Part shown: in pieces, positions 15,797 through 22,578 of the stretch | Position numbering within the stretch: position 1 is the stretch's first letter | Layout: each line of letters opens with the position of its first letter | Assembly (NCBI GenBank): GCA_910575005.1 | Contig: CAJTCL010000005.1 | Coordinates: 1 to 64,000 of the forward strand | DNA: 64,000 nucleotides | From: Lachnospiraceae bacterium | GTDB lineage: Bacteria > Bacillota > Clostridia > Lachnospirales > Lachnospiraceae | Direction of reading: 5' to 3' | The notes under the pieces: model-generated | Seen by the model: only the letters and a program-made list of their open reading frames with translations | The model's database searches: none | What the model was told of the DNA's origin: nothing | Program-made: the position numbers and the translations under genes

Positions 15797-15949
15797 TCAA
15801 ACAGCCCCTTTTTGGTGAAGATATTTTTCTCTAGTTGCCAGCCCGCCGCGAATATGCCGCTCTGATTTATTGACATCTAATACTTTACGTGCCTGAGATG
15901 CAAGCGCTGGATTTATCTGTACAAGCCGTTCTGTTACATCTTTATGTAC
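15797..15949 (-). CDS. spoIIID: SpoIIID, 3' part (codons 37-86) of an interrupted gene
   Basis: From the shared codons GTA CAT (VH) the minus strand encodes KDVTERLVQINPALASQARK, VLDVNKSERHIRGG and LATREKYLHQKGAV, then TGA at 15799-15797. This is the C-terminal half of SpoIIID, the mother-cell sporulation transcription factor; VHKDVTERL, INPAL, LDVNK and ERHIRGG are family hallmarks. There is no start codon or ribosome-binding site of its own. Just upstream the frame continues for some 15 non-SpoIIID codons to a TAG. The missing first 36 codons, plus the same GTA CAT, lie on the same strand at 22406-22519. Joining at TATGTAC gives an intact 86-residue protein without frameshift or lost residues. 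Until joined, this part is silent. Confidence 0.9.
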   Translation of the reverse strand, partial: VHKDVTERLVQINPALASQARKVLDVNKSERHIRGGLATREKYLHQKGAV

Positions 15950-15962
15950 TGTTGTAACAAAA
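15943..15962. repeat. Left attachment site of the spoIIID-interrupting element
   Basis: The core TATGTAC (15943-15949) is shared with the right end at 22405-22411. Inside the element it is followed after 4 bases by the arm GTAACAAAA (15954-15962), the exact inverse of the right arm TTTTGTTAC (22391-22399). Such a short core with flanking imperfect inverted arms is typical of large serine recombinase sites. Confidence 0.8.
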
Positions 15963-16118
15963 AGATACGTTTTCTAACTCTGCAATCCACACTTTGAGAT
16001 CACATAATAATCCTTCTTAATGGTAAATATGTACAAAAAAAATCCAAATTTTTATTGTATTAACGGAAAAATAACGATATAATAAAAAAGAAGGGATAAA
16101 GATACCAGGGAGGTTACT

Positions 16119-18149
16119 ATGAAAAAACAAAAGAATAAAATTAATTCAAAAAAAAGAATCGCCGATGAAATTCTCCATCGAATTGGAGGCAGTGTCGTTC
16201 TTGTACTTTTGATAATCGCTGTTGTCTCAATCTATATGGTAGGATGGCTGAGCATTACCTCAAAAGAAACAGAACTAATTCAAGAATCCAATGCAGCCGC
16301 AAATCAACTGACAGGATTTTTAGAACAATATACAAAAAGTGTGGAACAATTGGCTGCCAACCCAGAAATCAAATATGTCATGATGAACACAAAAGCAGGA
16401 GACGATATCCGGCAAACAAAAAAAATGGATTCTGTTATGGAGAATCTCATCAATATCTCAAATACAGATACTGAAAATGTCATGGCTGTATGGATCTCAG
16501 ATTTAGATGCAAGTGTCCTCACACAGTCTGATGGTTTTATAAGTGAAGAGGGTTGGGATATCACCGGACGCGGATGGTATCACTGTATTGAGAACAAAGA
16601 AACTATTCTTACAGAACCATATGTTGATTCCTCCACTGGAAAGATGATCTTAAGCGCTGCATCTCCGGTTTATGATGATGCGACTGGAGCCGTTCTTGGC
16701 GCAGTAGGTATGGACATTTCACTAGATCACATGACACAACTTATGAGTGAATACAAGATTGGTCATAAGGGCTATATCTTGTTATTATCGGAAAATGGCA
16801 CCTTCCTTTATCACCCTGATAATAATATTATTCAAAAGAATATTAACGATGTAGACATATCTCAAAATGTCAGAGATGCTGTTACGTCCAAAACCAATAA
16901 ATTTTTAAAATATAGAACAGATGGCATTACAAAATATGGCTCATTACAATATGCTGGAGATACTGGATATATTGTACTCAGCAGCCTGCCTATGTCAGAA
17001 TATCATGCCATATTAATTGCGATGGTAGTTGCATTGATCATTATCTTTGCGATTGGTATCACACTGATAGCAATCAGCATCAAGAAGAGCGCTGCAAATC
17101 TGACAAAACCCATCTTGGAGCTAAATCGTACTGCACAACAGCTTGCTGCTGGAAACCTGGATGTCAATTTACAGATAACTAGTGAGAATGAGATTGGAGA
17201 ACTAGGGGATTCCATCCAAAAAACGGTTGATCGTCTAAAACAATATATTATATACATTGATGAAACTGCAGAAGTACTGGCACAAATTGCTGACGGAAAG
17301 TTAAGTATTGATCTCAAACATGATTATGCTGGTGAATTTCAGAAAATAAAAATTGCCTTGTTCAATATCTCTGATTCTATGAATCAAGTTATGGTTGGAA
17401 TCCATGCAAGCTCTGAACATGTCTCTGTTGGAGCTACTGAACTCGCCACTGCTTCCCAAGTCCTGGCAGAAAGTGCAGAACAACAGGCCGCATCTATTGA
17501 AGAGCTGACAGCAACCACAAATACCGTTGCTGAACAAGTAGAAGACAGCCGCAGAGAGGCAGAAGCTTCTGCCGCAGCAACTGCACAGGCCACCTCAATG
17601 ATTGAGCAAAATCAGGAAAAAATGCAGTTAATGATGAATGCCATGAATGAAATCCAACAGACTTCTCAGCAGGTGGTTGGAATTATTCAAACCATCGAAG
17701 ATATCGCCTCACAGACCAATCTTCTGTCATTAAATGCCTCCATAGAAGCTGCCCGTGCCGGTGAAGCTGGAAAAGGATTTGCTGTTGTGGCTGATGAAAT
17801 TGGAAAACTGGCGTTAGAGAGTTCCAAAGCAGCAAGCACCACAAGAGAATTGATCGAGATTTCACTCAAAGAAATCAACAACGGAAATAGCATTGCTGTT
17901 GGCGCTATGGACTCCCTGAAAGAATCTGTAAATGCCGTAGACCAAGTAAATGAAAAGATCCAAGTAACAGCCGAAAATGCTGCTATCCAAGCAGAAAACA
18001 TGAAGCAGCTCCATATAGGAATTGAAGAGATCGCCCATAGAATACAAGATAACTCTGCTGCTTCCCAGGAAACCTTTGCTACTTCAGAAGAATTGGCTTC
18101 CCAGGCAGAAATATTAAATAAAATGGTACAAAAATTTGAACTTTATTAA
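16119..18149 (+). CDS. Methyl-accepting chemotaxis protein with Cache sensor (element cargo)
   Basis: A 676-residue transmembrane receptor. One membrane segment ([20 protein letters not shown]) lies near residues 27-46. A double-Cache-type extracellular sensor spans about 60-290 ([54 protein letters not shown]). A second membrane segment follows at about 300-325, then a HAMP domain and the cytoplasmic signalling hairpin. Its tip, [20 protein letters not shown], lies near residue 535. It signals to CheA through CheW. AGGGAGG is 6 bases before the ATG. It is the only plus-strand gene inside the spoIIID element, so the receptor is cargo; its ligand is unknown. Downstream is a long inverted repeat. 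Confidence 0.93.
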
Positions 18150-18173
18150 ACAATCTGGCTGATCATTGTTTTT

Positions 18174-18274
18174 GGGGCTGTCGTATTAAGAACAAAACAT
18201 AACGGATATCGTATCTTCTGCAATCAGAATTTTCTATATCTTATATTATGATGTTGTCTTAATGCGGCAGCCCC
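18174..18274. repeat. Long imperfect inverted repeat between the receptor and recombinase genes
   Basis: 18-bp arms at 18174-18191 (GGGGCTGTCGTATTAAGA) and 18257-18274 (TCTTAATGCGGCAGCCCC) match at 16 positions and enclose about 65 bases. The flanking genes converge here, so it may act as a bidirectional terminator. An RNA or small mobile-repeat origin is also possible. Confidence 0.55.
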
Positions 18275-18311
18275 GATTTCTTAATACAAGGAAATAAAAA
18301 ACGCTTCCTTG

Positions 18312-19850
18312 TTATTTTGTATGATTATTGTTAATTGATATGGTATCTTCAAAACCTAACTCCTCAAAAAGACGCAGATAAATATCGACATTCCCCTCAT
18401 GATCTACTTCTATTTTTTGGATAATCTGCTTAAGCTGTTCATTACTCATATCATGGACAGCAGTGATATCCTCAATACTTTTAAATGTCCTACTCAGAAT
18501 ATCCTTTAATTGATCCCCTTGGTTTAAATTGTATTCCACCAACTTTAACTCATTCTCCAAAACTTCTAATTGTGATTTCAGATCGCCCATTTTTTGATTC
18601 AATTCCTGGCGGCTAATTAAATCATCTGTATACATGTCCATATATTTTTGACGAGTCTTTTTGAGCTTTACCATCTTGTCCAACAAATTTCTTTGTATAT
18701 TCACGTTTTCATCTTTTGCTCGATATAGTTTTAGAAATTCTTTGATTACGTAATCTATAATTTTTTTTCTGTATGTTAGTATGTCTGAAAAATAATTTTC
18801 CAGTGCTTGTACTAACTCCTCCTCCCCTAATGTCACAGTATTAGAACAACAGTCTGCTCCCCTTCCATTATGTCCCGAACAAACCCAACGGACATACGTA
18901 TTCTTATAAGTACGGACACTCCTGCGAAAAGACCATCCACACTCTTTACATTTAATTAGTGTGCTAAAAAGATATTTATTGCTTTGGCGTTCACTCTTGA
19001 TATGAAAAGCTCCATGACGGTTTTTTAAAACTTGCTGCGCTTTATCAAACTGCTCTGGTTCAATAATCCGCAAATCAGGACGGTCTGTGACCATCCACTC
19101 CTCTTGCTTCTTTTCTTCTCTCACTCCAGTCAAAAAATCGGTGACTTCCTGCTTGCCATTGATAATTTTTCCAATATATAATTTATTGGTGAGAATACGG
19201 CGGACTGCATTCTGGCTAAAATTACAGTTTCGCTTGGTTTTTAGGCCCCTTTCATTGAGCATATTGGCAATTTTCGCTGCTCCATACCCCTCTTTGGTAT
19301 ACAAATCATAAATTTGATGTACCACCTTCGCTTCCTCATGATTGATCTGCATATCAAAATATTCTCCAACAGTCTTATCATAACCATAGACGAGATTAGG
19401 CACCCGCCCTTTTTCAGCATTAATTTTCTTGCCAAATTTTACACGTTTGGAAGTATTAGCACTTTCTTCCTGCGCCAAAGCTCCAAATATCGTAATCACA
19501 AATTCAGATTGACCTAGAACTGTCATATTGGCTGTTAAAAAGGTTGTCTCAATTCCTAAGGATTTCAAAGTGCGAATGCTCTGTAAAAGATCGACCGTAT
19601 TTCGGGCAAATCGAGAGATATCCTTTACCACCACCATATCAAACAGACCTTGTTTTGCATCGTCCATCAATCGTAGAAATTCTTTTCGATTCTTAATTTT
19701 GGTTCCCGAAATCCCTTCATCTGCATAGAGCTTTACCAAATGATGTCCATTTTTTTCCGTATACTCTGTAAAAAACTTCTTTTGTGCCTCTAAACTGTTT
19801 AACTGATCTGATTTATCGGTAGATACACGACAATAAGCAGCTATATTCAT
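18312..19850 (-). CDS. Large serine recombinase (SpoIVCA-like), probable excisionase of the spoIIID element
   Basis: A 512-residue site-specific recombinase. The N-terminal resolvase domain has IAAYCRVSTDKSDQ with nucleophile Ser10, DEGISGTKIKNRKEF and the catalytic arginines in VVKDISRFARN, then GALAQEES. The recombinase DNA-binding domain is at about 160-260. A zinc ribbon follows (CKECGWSFRR, then WVCSGHNGRGADCCSN), then a coiled-coil at about 370-450. The ATG at 19850 was chosen because AAAGG lies 7 bases upstream and the protein then starts MNIAAYCRVSTD. The domain order is that of SpoIVCA and phage serine integrases. As the only recombinase between the two spoIIID halves it is the obvious enzyme for both insertion and excision. 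The upstream 70-residue frame ends 5 bases before it, so translation is probably coupled. Confidence 0.95.
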   Translation of the reverse strand: MNIAAYCRVSTDKSDQLNSLEAQKKFFTEYTEKNGHHLVKLYADEGISGTKIKNRKEFLRLMDDAKQGLFDMVVVKDISRFARNTVDLLQSIRTLKSLGIETTFLTANMTVLGQSEFVITIFGALAQEESANTSKRVKFGKKINAEKGRVPNLVYGYDKTVGEYFDMQINHEEAKVVHQIYDLYTKEGYGAAKIANMLNERGLKTKRNCNFSQNAVRRILTNKLYIGKIINGKQEVTDFLTGVREEKKQEEWMVTDRPDLRIIEPEQFDKAQQVLKNRHGAFHIKSERQSNKYLFSTLIKCKECGWSFRRSVRTYKNTYVRWVCSGHNGRGADCCSNTVTLGEEELVQALENYFSDILTYRKKIIDYVIKEFLKLYRAKDENVNIQRNLLDKMVKLKKTRQKYMDMYTDDLISRQELNQKMGDLKSQLEVLENELKLVEYNLNQGDQLKDILSRTFKSIEDITAVHDMSNEQLKQIIQKIEVDHEGNVDIYLRLFEELGFEDTISINNNHTK

Positions 19851-19854
19851 ATCA

Positions 19855-20067
19855 TTACCTTTCCATATTGGCACATTTTAAGGCTTCATCCTGCAAAATC
19901 TGGTCAATTTTTTTGCGGTTTACCTTTAGAAGAATTCTTAATATGTAATCCGCCGTAACTTTAGGCGTGTTTGGATTATGAAAATGATATTTTAAATCTT
20001 GATTCTTGGGAATCAGAACCACCTCCCTATTCCGTTTATTTGCTTTCATTTCATGTTTTTCTAACAT
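19855..20067 (-). CDS. Small basic protein upstream of the recombinase, possible directionality factor
   Basis: Seventy residues, rich in Lys and Arg (NKRNREVVLIPKNQDLKYHF, then KVTADYILRILLKVNRKKID). No family is recognised. It ends 5 bases before the recombinase start, whose ribosome-binding site lies inside its last codons, so the two are coupled. Large serine recombinases need a small partner to switch from integration to excision, and such partners are often adjacent, so this is a candidate by position. The own ribosome-binding site is weak; translation could begin at either of two nearby ATG codons. Confidence 0.55.
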   Translation of the reverse strand: MLEKHEMKANKRNREVVLIPKNQDLKYHFHNPNTPKVTADYILRILLKVNRKKIDQILQDEALKCANMER

Positions 20068-20106
20068 ATGATTGCAAAACGAAAAATAGTCCTGATTGTC
20101 CCATAA

Positions 20107-21813
20107 TTATTTTTGATTACTTCCAATCAATACTTTTTTCCCACAAAAAGCAAAACCATATTTTCGTATTCTGTCACTGGAAATTCCTTTTGTGGTTAGA
20201 TATACTTCATATTCTTTTTGACTGATCTGTGCTAAGGCTGCCTTTACCGTATCACAAAGCTCCTTTTCCTCTTCCTGATCTTGTACCTTGAATTCCATTA
20301 TTATGGCGTCTTCTGACTTATTCCGAGGCTCCAGCATCACATCATATCTTCCAAATCCGCTCTCTCGATTTGATGTTATTATATAACGATCTGCCAATTC
20401 CACCATCAGCCCCAGCACAAAGCCATGATAAAAACGTTCTGGTTCGGTTTGGGATGCCTTTTTTCCTGTATCAAAATAGCTAAACATTTCCATACTTACG
20501 CGATTCATATAGACATTCATTGCCTTCACATCATTTATCAGCAGCGCCTTGATAAAATCATTATAATCCGCCCGATTCTCTGCAAACCATCCTTTGATCA
20601 TCCTTCCAAACATCCGCCTTACTTCATGGTTGGTCAGATCCAGCTCATAATTCACTTCCTGAAAATCATCCTCGATTTCCTCATATTTCTCATAACTGAC
20701 CACTTTTAAATATCCACTGGCCAGCAATAAGCTCCAGATTGCCCATTCATTCGTATCTAATTGGTCATATACCATCTGTTCCTCAATCGGTGTTATGAGG
20801 TGCTCTCCCGCCAAAAGTCTTTCAAATGCTTGCTTGATCTCCCTGTTTCCTTCTCGGAGAAGTTTTCCAATCAGGCGGTTTGAGCTGGTATTGGCCCAAT
20901 ACAACCCTGCCTTTCTCTTGTTCAAGTAATTTATGATGGACCACGGATTATAAATATCTTTCTGACTGCCGAATGTAAAGCCATCATACCACAGCTTTAC
21001 TTCCTGTGCCTTATCTAACAGTCCAAATTCCTCTAGTGACGCAAATACTTCTGCTTCTGTAAAACCAAACACATCCGCATATTTATCAGATGTCGTGGTG
21101 ACAACCTCCAAATTATTCAAATCTGAAAATATAGATTCCTTGCTTATTCTCGTTATTCCAGTCATAATTGCTCGTTCTAGATATGGATTATCCTTGAATG
21201 TGGAGTTAAACAAACTTCTGATAAAACCAACTAGTTCCTGCCAATATCCATTTACATATGCCTCCTGCATTGGCGTATCGTACTCATCCAACAATATAAT
21301 CACTTTTTTTTCATAATAACGAGAAAGAAAATCAGACATTTTATGAATTGCCCATACTGCTGTTATCTCTTTCATGCCACCATTCACACTCTGAAAATAT
21401 GCTTTCTCATTGTCTGTCAAAAGATTCCCCTCAATTAAAAATATATTTTTATTATACAAATCTTCCAAAATCTGATTGATAGATTGTCTCGTCCCCTGAT
21501 AATCTTTTTCTTTCACATTGGCAAAAGACAAATTTATAACTGGAAACGTTCCTTGTAGACTTTGATATTTTTTATCCTCCCATATCGAAAGTCCCTCAAA
21601 CAACTCTTGTCTTTTTCCATATTTGACAGAGAAAAACTTTTCTAACATACTCATATTTAAAGTCTTGCCAAACCTCCGCGGACGAGTAATCAAGGTCACA
21701 TCATCCTCCGCTTCCCACCATTCTTTGATAAAACCAGTTTTATCTATATAGAAGGTATTCTTTATCCGTATTTTTTCAAAATCCTGATGTCCTATCCCTA
21801 CTGTTCTAGGCAT
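20107..21813 (-). CDS. AAA-ATPase-like protein with C-terminal PD-(D/E)XK domain
   Basis: 568 residues, starting MPRTVGIGHQDFEKIR after an AGGGGG ribosome-binding site. An AAA-ATPase-like domain comes first: FYIDKTGFIKEWWE, the arginine-rich Walker A region LITRPRRFGKTLNMSMLEKF near residue 42, Walker B VIILLDEYDTPMQEA near 175 and GITRISKESIFSDLNN. A PDDEXK_9-type nuclease-fold domain closes the protein (GFGRYDVMLEPRN, AIIMEFKVQDQEEEKEL near 530). This family is abundant in gut Clostridia and Bacteroidetes and its role is unknown. Inside the element it may serve maintenance or defence. Slightly upstream starts are possible but lack a ribosome-binding site. Confidence 0.9.
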   Translation of the reverse strand: MPRTVGIGHQDFEKIRIKNTFYIDKTGFIKEWWEAEDDVTLITRPRRFGKTLNMSMLEKFFSVKYGKRQELFEGLSIWEDKKYQSLQGTFPVINLSFANVKEKDYQGTRQSINQILEDLYNKNIFLIEGNLLTDNEKAYFQSVNGGMKEITAVWAIHKMSDFLSRYYEKKVIILLDEYDTPMQEAYVNGYWQELVGFIRSLFNSTFKDNPYLERAIMTGITRISKESIFSDLNNLEVVTTTSDKYADVFGFTEAEVFASLEEFGLLDKAQEVKLWYDGFTFGSQKDIYNPWSIINYLNKRKAGLYWANTSSNRLIGKLLREGNREIKQAFERLLAGEHLITPIEEQMVYDQLDTNEWAIWSLLLASGYLKVVSYEKYEEIEDDFQEVNYELDLTNHEVRRMFGRMIKGWFAENRADYNDFIKALLINDVKAMNVYMNRVSMEMFSYFDTGKKASQTEPERFYHGFVLGLMVELADRYIITSNRESGFGRYDVMLEPRNKSEDAIIMEFKVQDQEEEKELCDTVKAALAQISQKEYEVYLTTKGISSDRIRKYGFAFCGKKVLIGSNQK

Positions 21814-21912
21814 ATATTCACCCCCTTCTTGCCCATTTTCCACAATTATACTCTATCACACTCTATTCCACAATCTATGATTTTTATCTTGTGGCTTATA
21901 TCACAATGATTC

Positions 21913-22122
21913 TTATATGTATTTTTCAATCTCGCACTGGAACCATTTTGAAAAGAATTTTTTTCTGCCCTCTTTCGATTTAAAGATTCCTGCATAATCT
22001 ACCTGTATCTGTTTTTTTGTTTTATTTTTCACAAATATAGTATAATTGTCTCCATTTTTCTTAGTCTTAGACCGCGAAAATAATGCCGTTTTACCATCCA
22101 CATTCACAGTATTGGAATCCAT
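21913..22122 (-). CDS. Small basic protein near the right end of the element
   Basis: Sixty-nine residues from the ATG at 22122, which has AGGAG 6 bases upstream: MDSNTVNVDGKTALFSRSK, then KNGDNYTIFVKNKTKKQIQV and SKWFQCEIEKYI. Lysine-rich and probably beta-stranded; no family recognised. The frame is open further upstream to about 22170 without a better start. It could be a DNA-binding accessory protein of the recombinase, or a remnant. Confidence 0.5.
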   Translation of the reverse strand: MDSNTVNVDGKTALFSRSKTKKNGDNYTIFVKNKTKKQIQVDYAGIFKSKEGRKKFFSKWFQCEIEKYI

Positions 22123-22273
22123 AGTAAACTCCTGATCTTTACCAGTACCTTCATTCTGACAGAAACTCAAACCATAACATGCATTGTCAAATAAGTATTT
22201 GTCAGTCTTGCAGCAATGCCTAAAAACTATCTGAAAATTATTTTCTCAATTTTTTAATACTTGGTAACAACAA

Positions 22274-22318
22274 AAGCACCTTTGAGGGTCAGTTCACTCA
22301 CCGCTCTCAAAGATGCTT
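22274..22318. terminator. Hairpin near the element's right end
   Basis: AAGCACCTTTGAG (22274-22286) pairs with CTCAAAGATGCTT (22306-22318) with one mismatch. The plus side is followed by CTACTTTTC. It could end transcription entering from the unjoined spoIIID 5' part or from within the element. Confidence 0.45.
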
Positions 22319-22345
22319 CTACTTTTCAAATTCTTCTTGTCTTCA

Positions 22346-22519
22346 TTATATAACTTGTCTTTTTATTTTATCCTCATATTTACCGTTCCATTTTGTTACT
22401 ACCATATGTACCGTGCTCTTGCTAATTCCAAACTTTTTGGCGGTCTGGCGCACAGTAGCATTCTCCTCAATTATATAATTAGCTATATTAATTGCCCGTT
22501 CCTCTATGTATCCTTTCAA
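22346..22519 (-). CDS. spoIIID: SpoIIID, 5' part (codons 1-38) of an interrupted gene
   Basis: From the TTG at 22519 (GAGGGA 6 bases upstream) the frame reads MKGYIEERAINIANYIIEEN, then ATVRQTAKKFGISKSTVH. This is the complete N-terminal half of SpoIIID with its helix-turn-helix. At the core TATGTAC (22405-22411) true SpoIIID sequence ends. The frame continues with 19 unrelated codons (MVVTKWNG and on) to a TAA at 22346, which are element DNA. The recognition helix is therefore present while the DNA-contacting C-terminal helices lie at 15797-15943. An upstream GTG at 22537 is possible but less like family starts. Expressed as it stands, it would give a 57-residue truncated DNA-binding protein. 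A sigma-E-type promoter precedes it. Confidence 0.9.
   Translation of the reverse strand: MKGYIEERAINIANYIIEENATVRQTAKKFGISKSTVHMVVTKWNGKYEDKIKRQVI
22391..22411. repeat. Right attachment site of the spoIIID-interrupting element
   Basis: The arm TTTTGTTAC (22391-22399) lies inside the element, 5 bases from the core TATGTAC (22405-22411), mirroring the left end. The excised circle would carry TTTTGTTAC and GTAACAAAA as inverted arms around GTACATA. Confidence 0.8.
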
Positions 22520-22549
22520 CGAAAATCCCTCATACACTGCTTTTTTTAT

Positions 22550-22578
22550 AATGTATGAAGAATTGGTGATAGTTATGA
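22550..22578 (-). promoter_or_regulatory. Sigma-E-type sporulation promoter of spoIIID
   Basis: On the minus strand TCATAAC (22578-22572), 14 bases, then CATACATT (22557-22550) closely match the sigma-E consensus (TCATATT and CATACAAT types). The expected transcript start is about 24 bases before the TTG start. spoIIID is a sigma-E target in Bacillus, so the site fits the gene and argues that the locus is still used. Confidence 0.7.

Follow-up and report, generated by a model that had tools for sequence, protein, structure and literature searches.

In the 64,000-nucleotide stretch of DNA analysed here (Lachnospiraceae bacterium, assembly GCA_910575005.1, contig CAJTCL010000005.1, positions 1 to 64,000 of the forward strand; hereafter the window), the sporulation gene spoIIID is present as two in-frame pieces on the minus strand, which are separated by 6,462 bp with a serine recombinase gene in between. 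SpoIIID is described as an early mother-cell regulator that activates sigK (PMC5025042, in the part of the paper available). From our point of view, the intervening DNA is probably a skin-like, phage-derived element, and spoIIID would be rejoined through its excision in the mother cell. More specifically, we consider it quite likely that a reduced prophage resides in spoIIID and is removed, at a time set by sigma-E, by a recombinase that a small protein termed HNPN switches to excision, whereby codons 38 and 39 would be rejoined in the mother cell. What can be read from the sequences themselves is that the gene is split, where the attachment sites lie, that the recombinase is tied to the split, that both halves are under constraint and that a promoter-like box is present.

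Results

The 5' half of spoIIID comprises codons 1-38 with a TTG start (22406..22519) and the 3' half codons 39-86 plus the stop codon (15797..15943), both on the minus strand and both supported by alignment with intact relatives. Each half alone lies above the Pfam cut-off for SpoIIID, with 68.8 bits for the open stretch 22349-22519 and 69.2 bits for the 3' half (model positions 38-81). The element (15944..22405, minus strand) sits between codons 38 and 39, and GTACATA (TATGTAC on the plus strand) is common to both sides, at 22411-22405 and 15949-15943. A first-pass annotation of this DNA had claimed in-frame halves of one spoIIID around a recombinase-bearing element, and its coordinates as well as the 7-bp TATGTAC are borne out; only its junction, given as '22412 to 15942', is a few bases off, as 22406 is the last base of codon 38 and 15943 the first of codon 39. 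Its claim that joining the pieces restores spoIIID agrees with a joined frame that has no stop up to codon 82, the last one tested, and that resembles the genes of genus relatives. A second intact spoIIID, for which it had advised a search, is not found in the genome of the window (G000 in our numbering of genomes; 4.29 Mb, 88 contigs, 99.45% complete): the two halves are the sole SpoIIID matches at E <= 0.001 in a Pfam profile search, and a search for the joined codon 38-39 junction allowing 2 mismatches found none.

The uninterrupted arrangement, which the same annotation had advised to look for in relatives, is common in the genus. Among 29 genomes, 22 carry a full-length spoIIID, and in all 22 the two window flanks adjoin each other in alignment, with an overlap of ~10 bp or more and an empty site in place of the element, which identifies the two pieces as parts of one gene. 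The gene leuA aligns downstream in 21 of these 22 short intact loci (the exception being L021 in our numbering of loci). The other seven genomes (G000, G002, G003, G005, G015, G021 and G024) have two halves broken at the same codon and no full copy, with the halves on different contigs in G021 and G024. In a survey of 220 Lachnospiraceae genomes from 219 genera, with classes assigned by reading match tables and all counts taken among the matches listed, 134 genomes have SpoIIID above the cut-off, and 12 of the 134 (G000, G056, G059, G083, G104, G121, G134, G151, G160, G198, G201 and G215) possess both halves without an intact copy, on different contigs in seven. Where both halves lie on one contig, their spacing in genus and family genomes ranges from 3.5 to 75 kb. 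Carriers with strain names include Sporofaciens musculi WCA-9-b2, Schaedlerella arabinosiphila DSM 106076 and Lachnospiraceae bacterium A2. An assembly artefact was considered and is ruled out, because the same split occurs in many independent genomes.

If the insertion had simply inactivated spoIIID, carriers would make no spores, or would make spores without SpoIIID. This explanation could draw on the 3 of 220 family genomes with a single half (G031 and G227 with the 5' half, G199 with the 3' half) and on one with fragments only (G143), and it agrees with the lack of an excised form in the assemblies searched. However, purifying selection is undiminished on both halves. For the 5' half, the ratio of nonsynonymous to synonymous polymorphism (pN/pS) amounts to 0.025 in the seven split genes of the genus and to 0.023 in the intact genes, and for the 3' half to 0.074 and 0.075, respectively; this equality argues that the rejoined gene is kept functional by selection. 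Between the window and its split relative G015, the halves differ by 14 synonymous and zero amino-acid changes, which, judged from site counts, would occur by chance with a probability of ~1e-9 without constraint. None of the 29 joined frames tested is broken, all being open up to codon 81 or 82, though the loci were chosen through recognisable halves and badly decayed ones could be missed. Finally, four genomes (G009, G139, G715 and G779) keep an intact copy beside an element remnant that is devoid of a recombinase in the stretch fetched. Taken together, we regard mere inactivation as very unlikely.

In these four genomes (loci L037, L148, L184 and L185), the left end of the element and a spoIIID 5' half are located 4-11 kb upstream of the intact spoIIID, and the stretches fetched contain neither a recombinase nor an HNPN gene. 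Over 114 bases, the 5' parts of remnant and intact copy match completely in G139 and G715 and at 97-98 positions in G009 and G779, which looks like a bypass through duplication followed by decay of the element. The family survey lists an intact spoIIID plus one half in G052, G064, G139 and G210. At the G052 locus (L149), the intact gene stands in tandem just upstream of a second copy, and the element that splits this second copy has a recombinase of 46.9% identity. In G134 (L145 and L146), the halves are 75 kb apart, and a second, broken 5' half with a second left end is found ~2.8 kb inside, possibly as a result of stacked insertions.

The 5' half (window 22346-22537) continues for 19 codons beyond the element border, and its Pfam SpoIIID match extends to model position 55, owing in part to the likeness of the element end to the host site. 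The unexcised 5' half of the window could hence yield a short SpoIIID-like protein with a helix-turn-helix. One could speculate that this product of 38 residues with a tail of 19 is the functional protein in its own right and that excision has no role, given that the tail is open in the window and lies inside the Pfam match. This idea deserves next to no credence, since the tail stops after exactly five residues in 19 of the 31 5' halves counted (a count that includes the window) and since the 3' half is conserved although it would be useless in that case.

The recombinase gene (18312..19850, minus strand) encodes a large serine recombinase of 512 amino acids, which contains the resolvase, recombinase and zinc beta ribbon domains of a serine integrase (Pfam) and matches the integrase family phrog_95. 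A homologue of ~70% identity or more is present once per genome in all seven split genomes of the genus. No such homologue was found among the 22 intact genomes, and the matches that rank next reach at most 42% identity; for four intact and three split genomes, this scoring covered the best 52 candidates. A scan of 84,980 species genomes yielded 244 loci with relatives of the recombinase, and the best 80 of these form our set of named loci. The spoIIID 3' half is present at 76 of the 80, and at 74 of them no more than 166 bp separate the end of the aligned recombinase from codon 39, the exceptions being L059 (G015), where the distance is 2.4 kb as in the window, and L135 with 7.2 kb. Both halves are present at 26 of the 80 loci, on the same strand in every case and with elements of 3.75 to 11.45 kb. 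The locus L134 ends at the attachment core, and L086, L096 and L104 show no spoIIID half.

A class-wide sample gave the recombinase in at least 7 of 391 genomes, with at most three candidates per genome scored; these seven include the window genome and G317, which matches in position and size the locus L086 that is not in spoIIID. In three genomes the spoIIID 3' half adjoins recombinases of 70, 67 and 62% identity (G539, G532 and G477, respectively), and in G304 it is located 2.4 kb from one of 50%, all four genomes belonging to families other than that of the window. A recombinase of 48% identity adjoins the 5' half on the opposite strand in G380, and the 6.4-kb human faecal record MT838016 carries a 3' half next to a recombinase of 58%. 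In G104 (L153), the 3' half starts at codon 39 and lies 1.6 kb from a serine recombinase with an identity of only 24%, which may represent a second recombinase lineage using spoIIID.

A peculiarity of the recombinase gene concerns its end. In 53 of the 66 loci at which it was placed close by (e.g., L072, L111 and L065), its stop codon starts at the T of the core and borrows the first two bases of host codon 39, and 10 further loci share this layout if a model offset of 3 bases is allowed. In a circular form of the element, the open frame would continue past this point, adding 14 residues in 10 of 27 elements, so that two C-terminal forms of the recombinase may exist.

The attachment sites were delimited by comparison of element ends. 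In the window, attL (22380..22411, minus strand) consists of the core GTACATA and the left element arm, and attR (15943..15975, minus strand) of the right element arm and the core, this arm being further from the consensus than in most elements. Read outward from the central CA, the left end has the consensus TATGGTTGTAACAAAATAGAACGGTT, and the right end is a near copy with the arms inverted; joined, the ends (31 left, 79 right) give an attP that is nearly palindromic. On the host side, the attB arm within the 3' half of spoIIID reads TAAAGACGTAACAGAACGG. An inner motif GTAAC is found at +8 in both attP and attB, whereas the position of an outer motif, GAACG, changes from +19 in attP to +14 in attB, 5 bp nearer to the centre. 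In the serine-integrase model, as far as it is laid out in the accessible part of PMC3783163, the zinc-ribbon motif is shifted by 5 bp inward in attB. The arm in the 3' half agrees with this model; the other attB arm is without a clear motif by eye.

An uncut attP stands directly after the recombinase in four IMG/VR contigs, namely L139, L140 and L141 (50, 69 and 119 kb), which are apparently the same phage, and L142. L139 also encodes a DNA polymerase, a head protease and an endolysin. At its left end, the window element contains an AAA-PD-(D/E)XK gene (20107..21813, minus strand; 568 amino acids, AAA-ATPase-like, PF09820 and PF08011), which shares 67% identity with the L139 gene located to the right of attP. 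Because of this likeness, the element in the window appears to be a reduced prophage. A sequence at G031:C35:3416-3452, in a genome with the spoIIID 5' half only, resembles attP and has an altered core.

The best candidate for a directionality (excision) factor is the HNPN protein of 55 amino acids, which was recognised by a match to its family profile and whose gene (19855..20022, minus strand) ends 4 bp before the start of the recombinase. Members of this family have 44-88 amino acids as called, mostly 55-75, with a core like KLNYRFHNPNT...TADYILKI, and those tested gave no match in Pfam, NCBIfam or PHROGs. The family profile detects the gene in 68 of 77 elements, among them every one of the 27 whose full length lies on the locus; the nine without it in their sequence (L073, L105, L109, L113, L117, L121, L125, L131 and L137) are all incomplete at the 5' side. 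The HNPN gene ends less than 200 bp from the aligned recombinase start in 25 of the 68, the window included, and in the other 43 the two genes are farther apart or, in L130, on opposite strands. A distant relative was seen in the viral contigs L158, L159 and L161, where a recombinase-like frame with 31% identity lies ~3 kb away.

Sigma-E-like boxes precede both spoIIID and the HNPN gene. In the window, the predicted spoIIID promoter (22550..22578, minus strand) reads TCATAAC - 14 bp - CATACATT and was the best match obtained; 31 of 32 regions upstream of 5' halves, 30 of the 32 being distinct, exceed the shuffle threshold for such a box. The putative HNPN promoter (20063..20091, minus strand) reads GACTATT - 14 bp - CATATGTT, with identical spacing and a score of 11.2 against a 95% control threshold of 6.8, and probably also serves the recombinase gene behind it. 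For 74 of 78 HNPN genes (four had too little sequence), upstream regions could be compared, and 54 of the 74 contain [AC]TA-N16-CATA 35-75 bp before the start, as opposed to 0.64 expected in shuffles, for a pattern that was chosen after inspection of the same regions. With a matrix built from 21 distinct spoIIID promoters, 36 of 72 HNPN upstream regions score above the 95% level of 845 control open reading frames, compared to 3 of 67 recombinase upstream regions; all of these regions are related by descent, and the counts hence overstate their independence. Where the HNPN and recombinase genes lie apart, the box tends to precede the HNPN gene only, which recalls the skin element of C. difficile, in which sigma-E governs the factor but not the recombinase (PMC5025042, accessible part). 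The SpoIIID box KRTAACARK, as given in the same source, occurs upstream of HNPN in 2 of 74 regions, with 2.73 expected, and upstream of spoIIID itself in only 1 of 32.

These promoter data bear on the possibility that excision is an ordinary or stress-induced prophage-like event of low frequency outside the sporulation programme, and that it is the element-free cells that sporulate. As L139, with its polymerase, head protease, endolysin and uncut attP, carries this integrase, part of the family is a working phage lineage, and SP-beta illustrates, according to the part of PMC6957869 available, that both triggers can coexist. Nevertheless, the HNPN gene of the window is preceded by a sigma-E-like box with the same 14-bp spacing as in the spoIIID promoter, and spores formed by element-free cells would lack the element, which would tend to be lost, yet it recurs across species. 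We therefore consider such a purely phage-like behaviour unlikely, if less so than inactivation of the gene.

The remaining content of the element includes a short open frame of 85 amino acids (21913..22170, minus strand), which is uncertain, has no Pfam match and is not conserved in G015. Between the recombinase and attR, a host-like gene for a methyl-accepting chemotaxis protein (MCP; 16119..18149, plus strand) was identified by its Pfam MCP domains. Homologues are found upstream of the intact spoIIID in L005, L014 and L022, upstream of the split gene in G002 and G003 (L070 and L033), and at the same place inside the G015 element (L036). A PADLOC search gave no match for the AAA protein or the 85-residue frame, and its weak match to the MCP (E 0.0012) was set aside as likely coiled-coil similarity.

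The window and G015 thus share an unusual layout with a chemotaxis gene between recombinase and attR, and the whole element was likely inherited from their common ancestor, as far as this can be judged from sequence comparison. The synonymous divergence (dS) between them amounts to 0.51 for the recombinase, 0.43 for the AAA gene and 1.1 for HNPN, compared to 0.22-0.34 for the host genes leuA, HD-RR and topB and 0.25 for the MCP gene.

Discussion

The preferred course of events would be as follows. The 6.5-kb reduced prophage sits in spoIIID as a developmentally removable element. Its HNPN gene and, in the window, the recombinase gene behind it would be read from the sigma-E-like promoter, and the small element-encoded partner, for which HNPN is the best candidate, would switch the serine recombinase to excision. 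The recombinase would then join attL and attR at the CA dinucleotide of GTACAT, releasing the element in circular form and fusing codons 38 and 39 into an intact spoIIID, while the spore chromosome would retain the element and transmit it. Given the sigma-E-like promoter on the HNPN gene, excision is expected in the mother cell after the activation of sigma-E. We infer that excision does occur, that HNPN acts as its directionality factor, that the mother cell is its location, and that SpoIIID-dependent steps including sigK are delayed until then; excision would thereby set the timing ahead of sigma-K. Programmed excision that would act one step before sigma-K had also been proposed in the first-pass annotation, and the comparisons between genomes support this reading.

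Several observations weigh against this course of events. No clear circle was found: across 29 genus and 397 family assemblies, every match to the attP pattern was an attL, except for the one in G031; this pattern is narrow, however, recovering attL in 6 of 7 split genus genomes with three mismatches (G005 was missed) and in 6 of 397 family genomes with two, and the lack of circle matches is hence weak evidence either way. The excised junction is likewise absent from the assembly of the window genome. The single halves in G031, G227 and G199 and the parts in G143 would fit a gene lost for good, or gaps in the assemblies, and at 3 of the 80 named loci the recombinase is without a spoIIID half. 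Since dS of the recombinase and HNPN genes exceeds that of host genes, the elements of the window and G015 may not have been inherited together without exchange. As for the promoter, 20 of the 74 HNPN upstream regions contain no box in the range searched, the pattern was chosen with these regions in view, and its -10 often has a G where the classic sigma-E box has a C. Moreover, HNPN was assigned its role through association only, and both this role and that of the promoter are predictions.

According to the accessible part of PMC5025042, skin excision depends on SpoIIID in both B. subtilis and C. difficile. An element within spoIIID would consequently have to leave without SpoIIID, i.e., in response to sigma-E alone or to a vegetative signal.

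In this context, the state of sigK in the window genome is of interest. The gene is one uninterrupted frame (G000:C2:359480-360115) with a counted stop before it, so that a skin element in sigK is ruled out. The frame presumably starts where the mature protein would start, as judged by comparison with B. subtilis, which leaves no room for a pro-sequence. Most other genus members, those with an intact spoIIID included, start in the same range of the sigma-K model, and such a brake is hence not obligatory. As sigma-K of the window genome and of G015 has neither a skin element nor space for a pro-sequence, one could tentatively go further and imagine that control has moved from sigK to its activator. 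A phage-derived pair of recombinase and directionality factor would then have made spoIIID a composite gene in several families of gut Clostridia, and excision driven by sigma-E would serve as an irreversible mother-cell checkpoint. We put this forward as a conceivable but rather doubtful extension.

If the element is excised, its removal from spoIIID would place a DNA rearrangement upstream of those known to us, and with 12 of 134 sampled family genomes carrying a split gene, it may rank among the commoner developmental rearrangements in gut bacteria. For annotation, it follows that genomes with a split spoIIID are not to be treated as spoIIID-negative. The study further offers a recombinase group with predicted attP, attB and partner protein.

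The comparison with known systems is drawn from the parts of the cited papers that were available. The interrupted sporulation genes named there are sigK, spsM, spoVFB, spoVR, gerE and yabG (PMC5595907; PMC6957869; PMC5025042; PMC10747680), and we found no report of an interrupted spoIIID in the open-licence PMC literature (preprints lay outside this scope). While the principle is known, the target spoIIID, the dedicated recombinase group and the breadth of its occurrence appear to be new, as far as the literature searched shows.

The closest parallel is skin in sigK of B. subtilis and C. difficile, which is likewise prophage-like and splits the gene of a mother-cell regulator in frame (PMC5025042; PMC6957869). 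It encodes a large serine recombinase and a small directionality factor, whose candidate counterpart here is HNPN, and sigma-E controls the factor CD1234 in C. difficile and the recombinase in B. subtilis, as would be matched here by the sigma-E-like box (PMC5025042; PMC6957869). The difference lies in the target, sigK being unsplit in the window genome. SP-beta in spsM of B. subtilis also combines residence in a sporulation gene with a recombinase and a small factor that has a mother-cell promoter (PMC4191935; PMC6957869), but it is a full phage in a polysaccharide synthesis gene, whereas the window element has 6.5 kb and interrupts the gene of a master regulator. The gin element of Bacillus cereus ATCC10987, which is excised during sporulation, resembles the spoIIID element in splitting the very small gene of a mother-cell transcription factor, gerE, and differs from it by its size of 28.6 kb, its three serine recombinases, its lack of phage genes and its host group and target (PMC5595907). 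Lastly, yin in yabG of Clostridium botulinum V73 is clostridial and prophage-like and has a recombinase with a candidate directionality factor; as of November 2023 it was reported from no other NCBI genome (PMC10747680), whereas the spoIIID elements are found in many species of several families.

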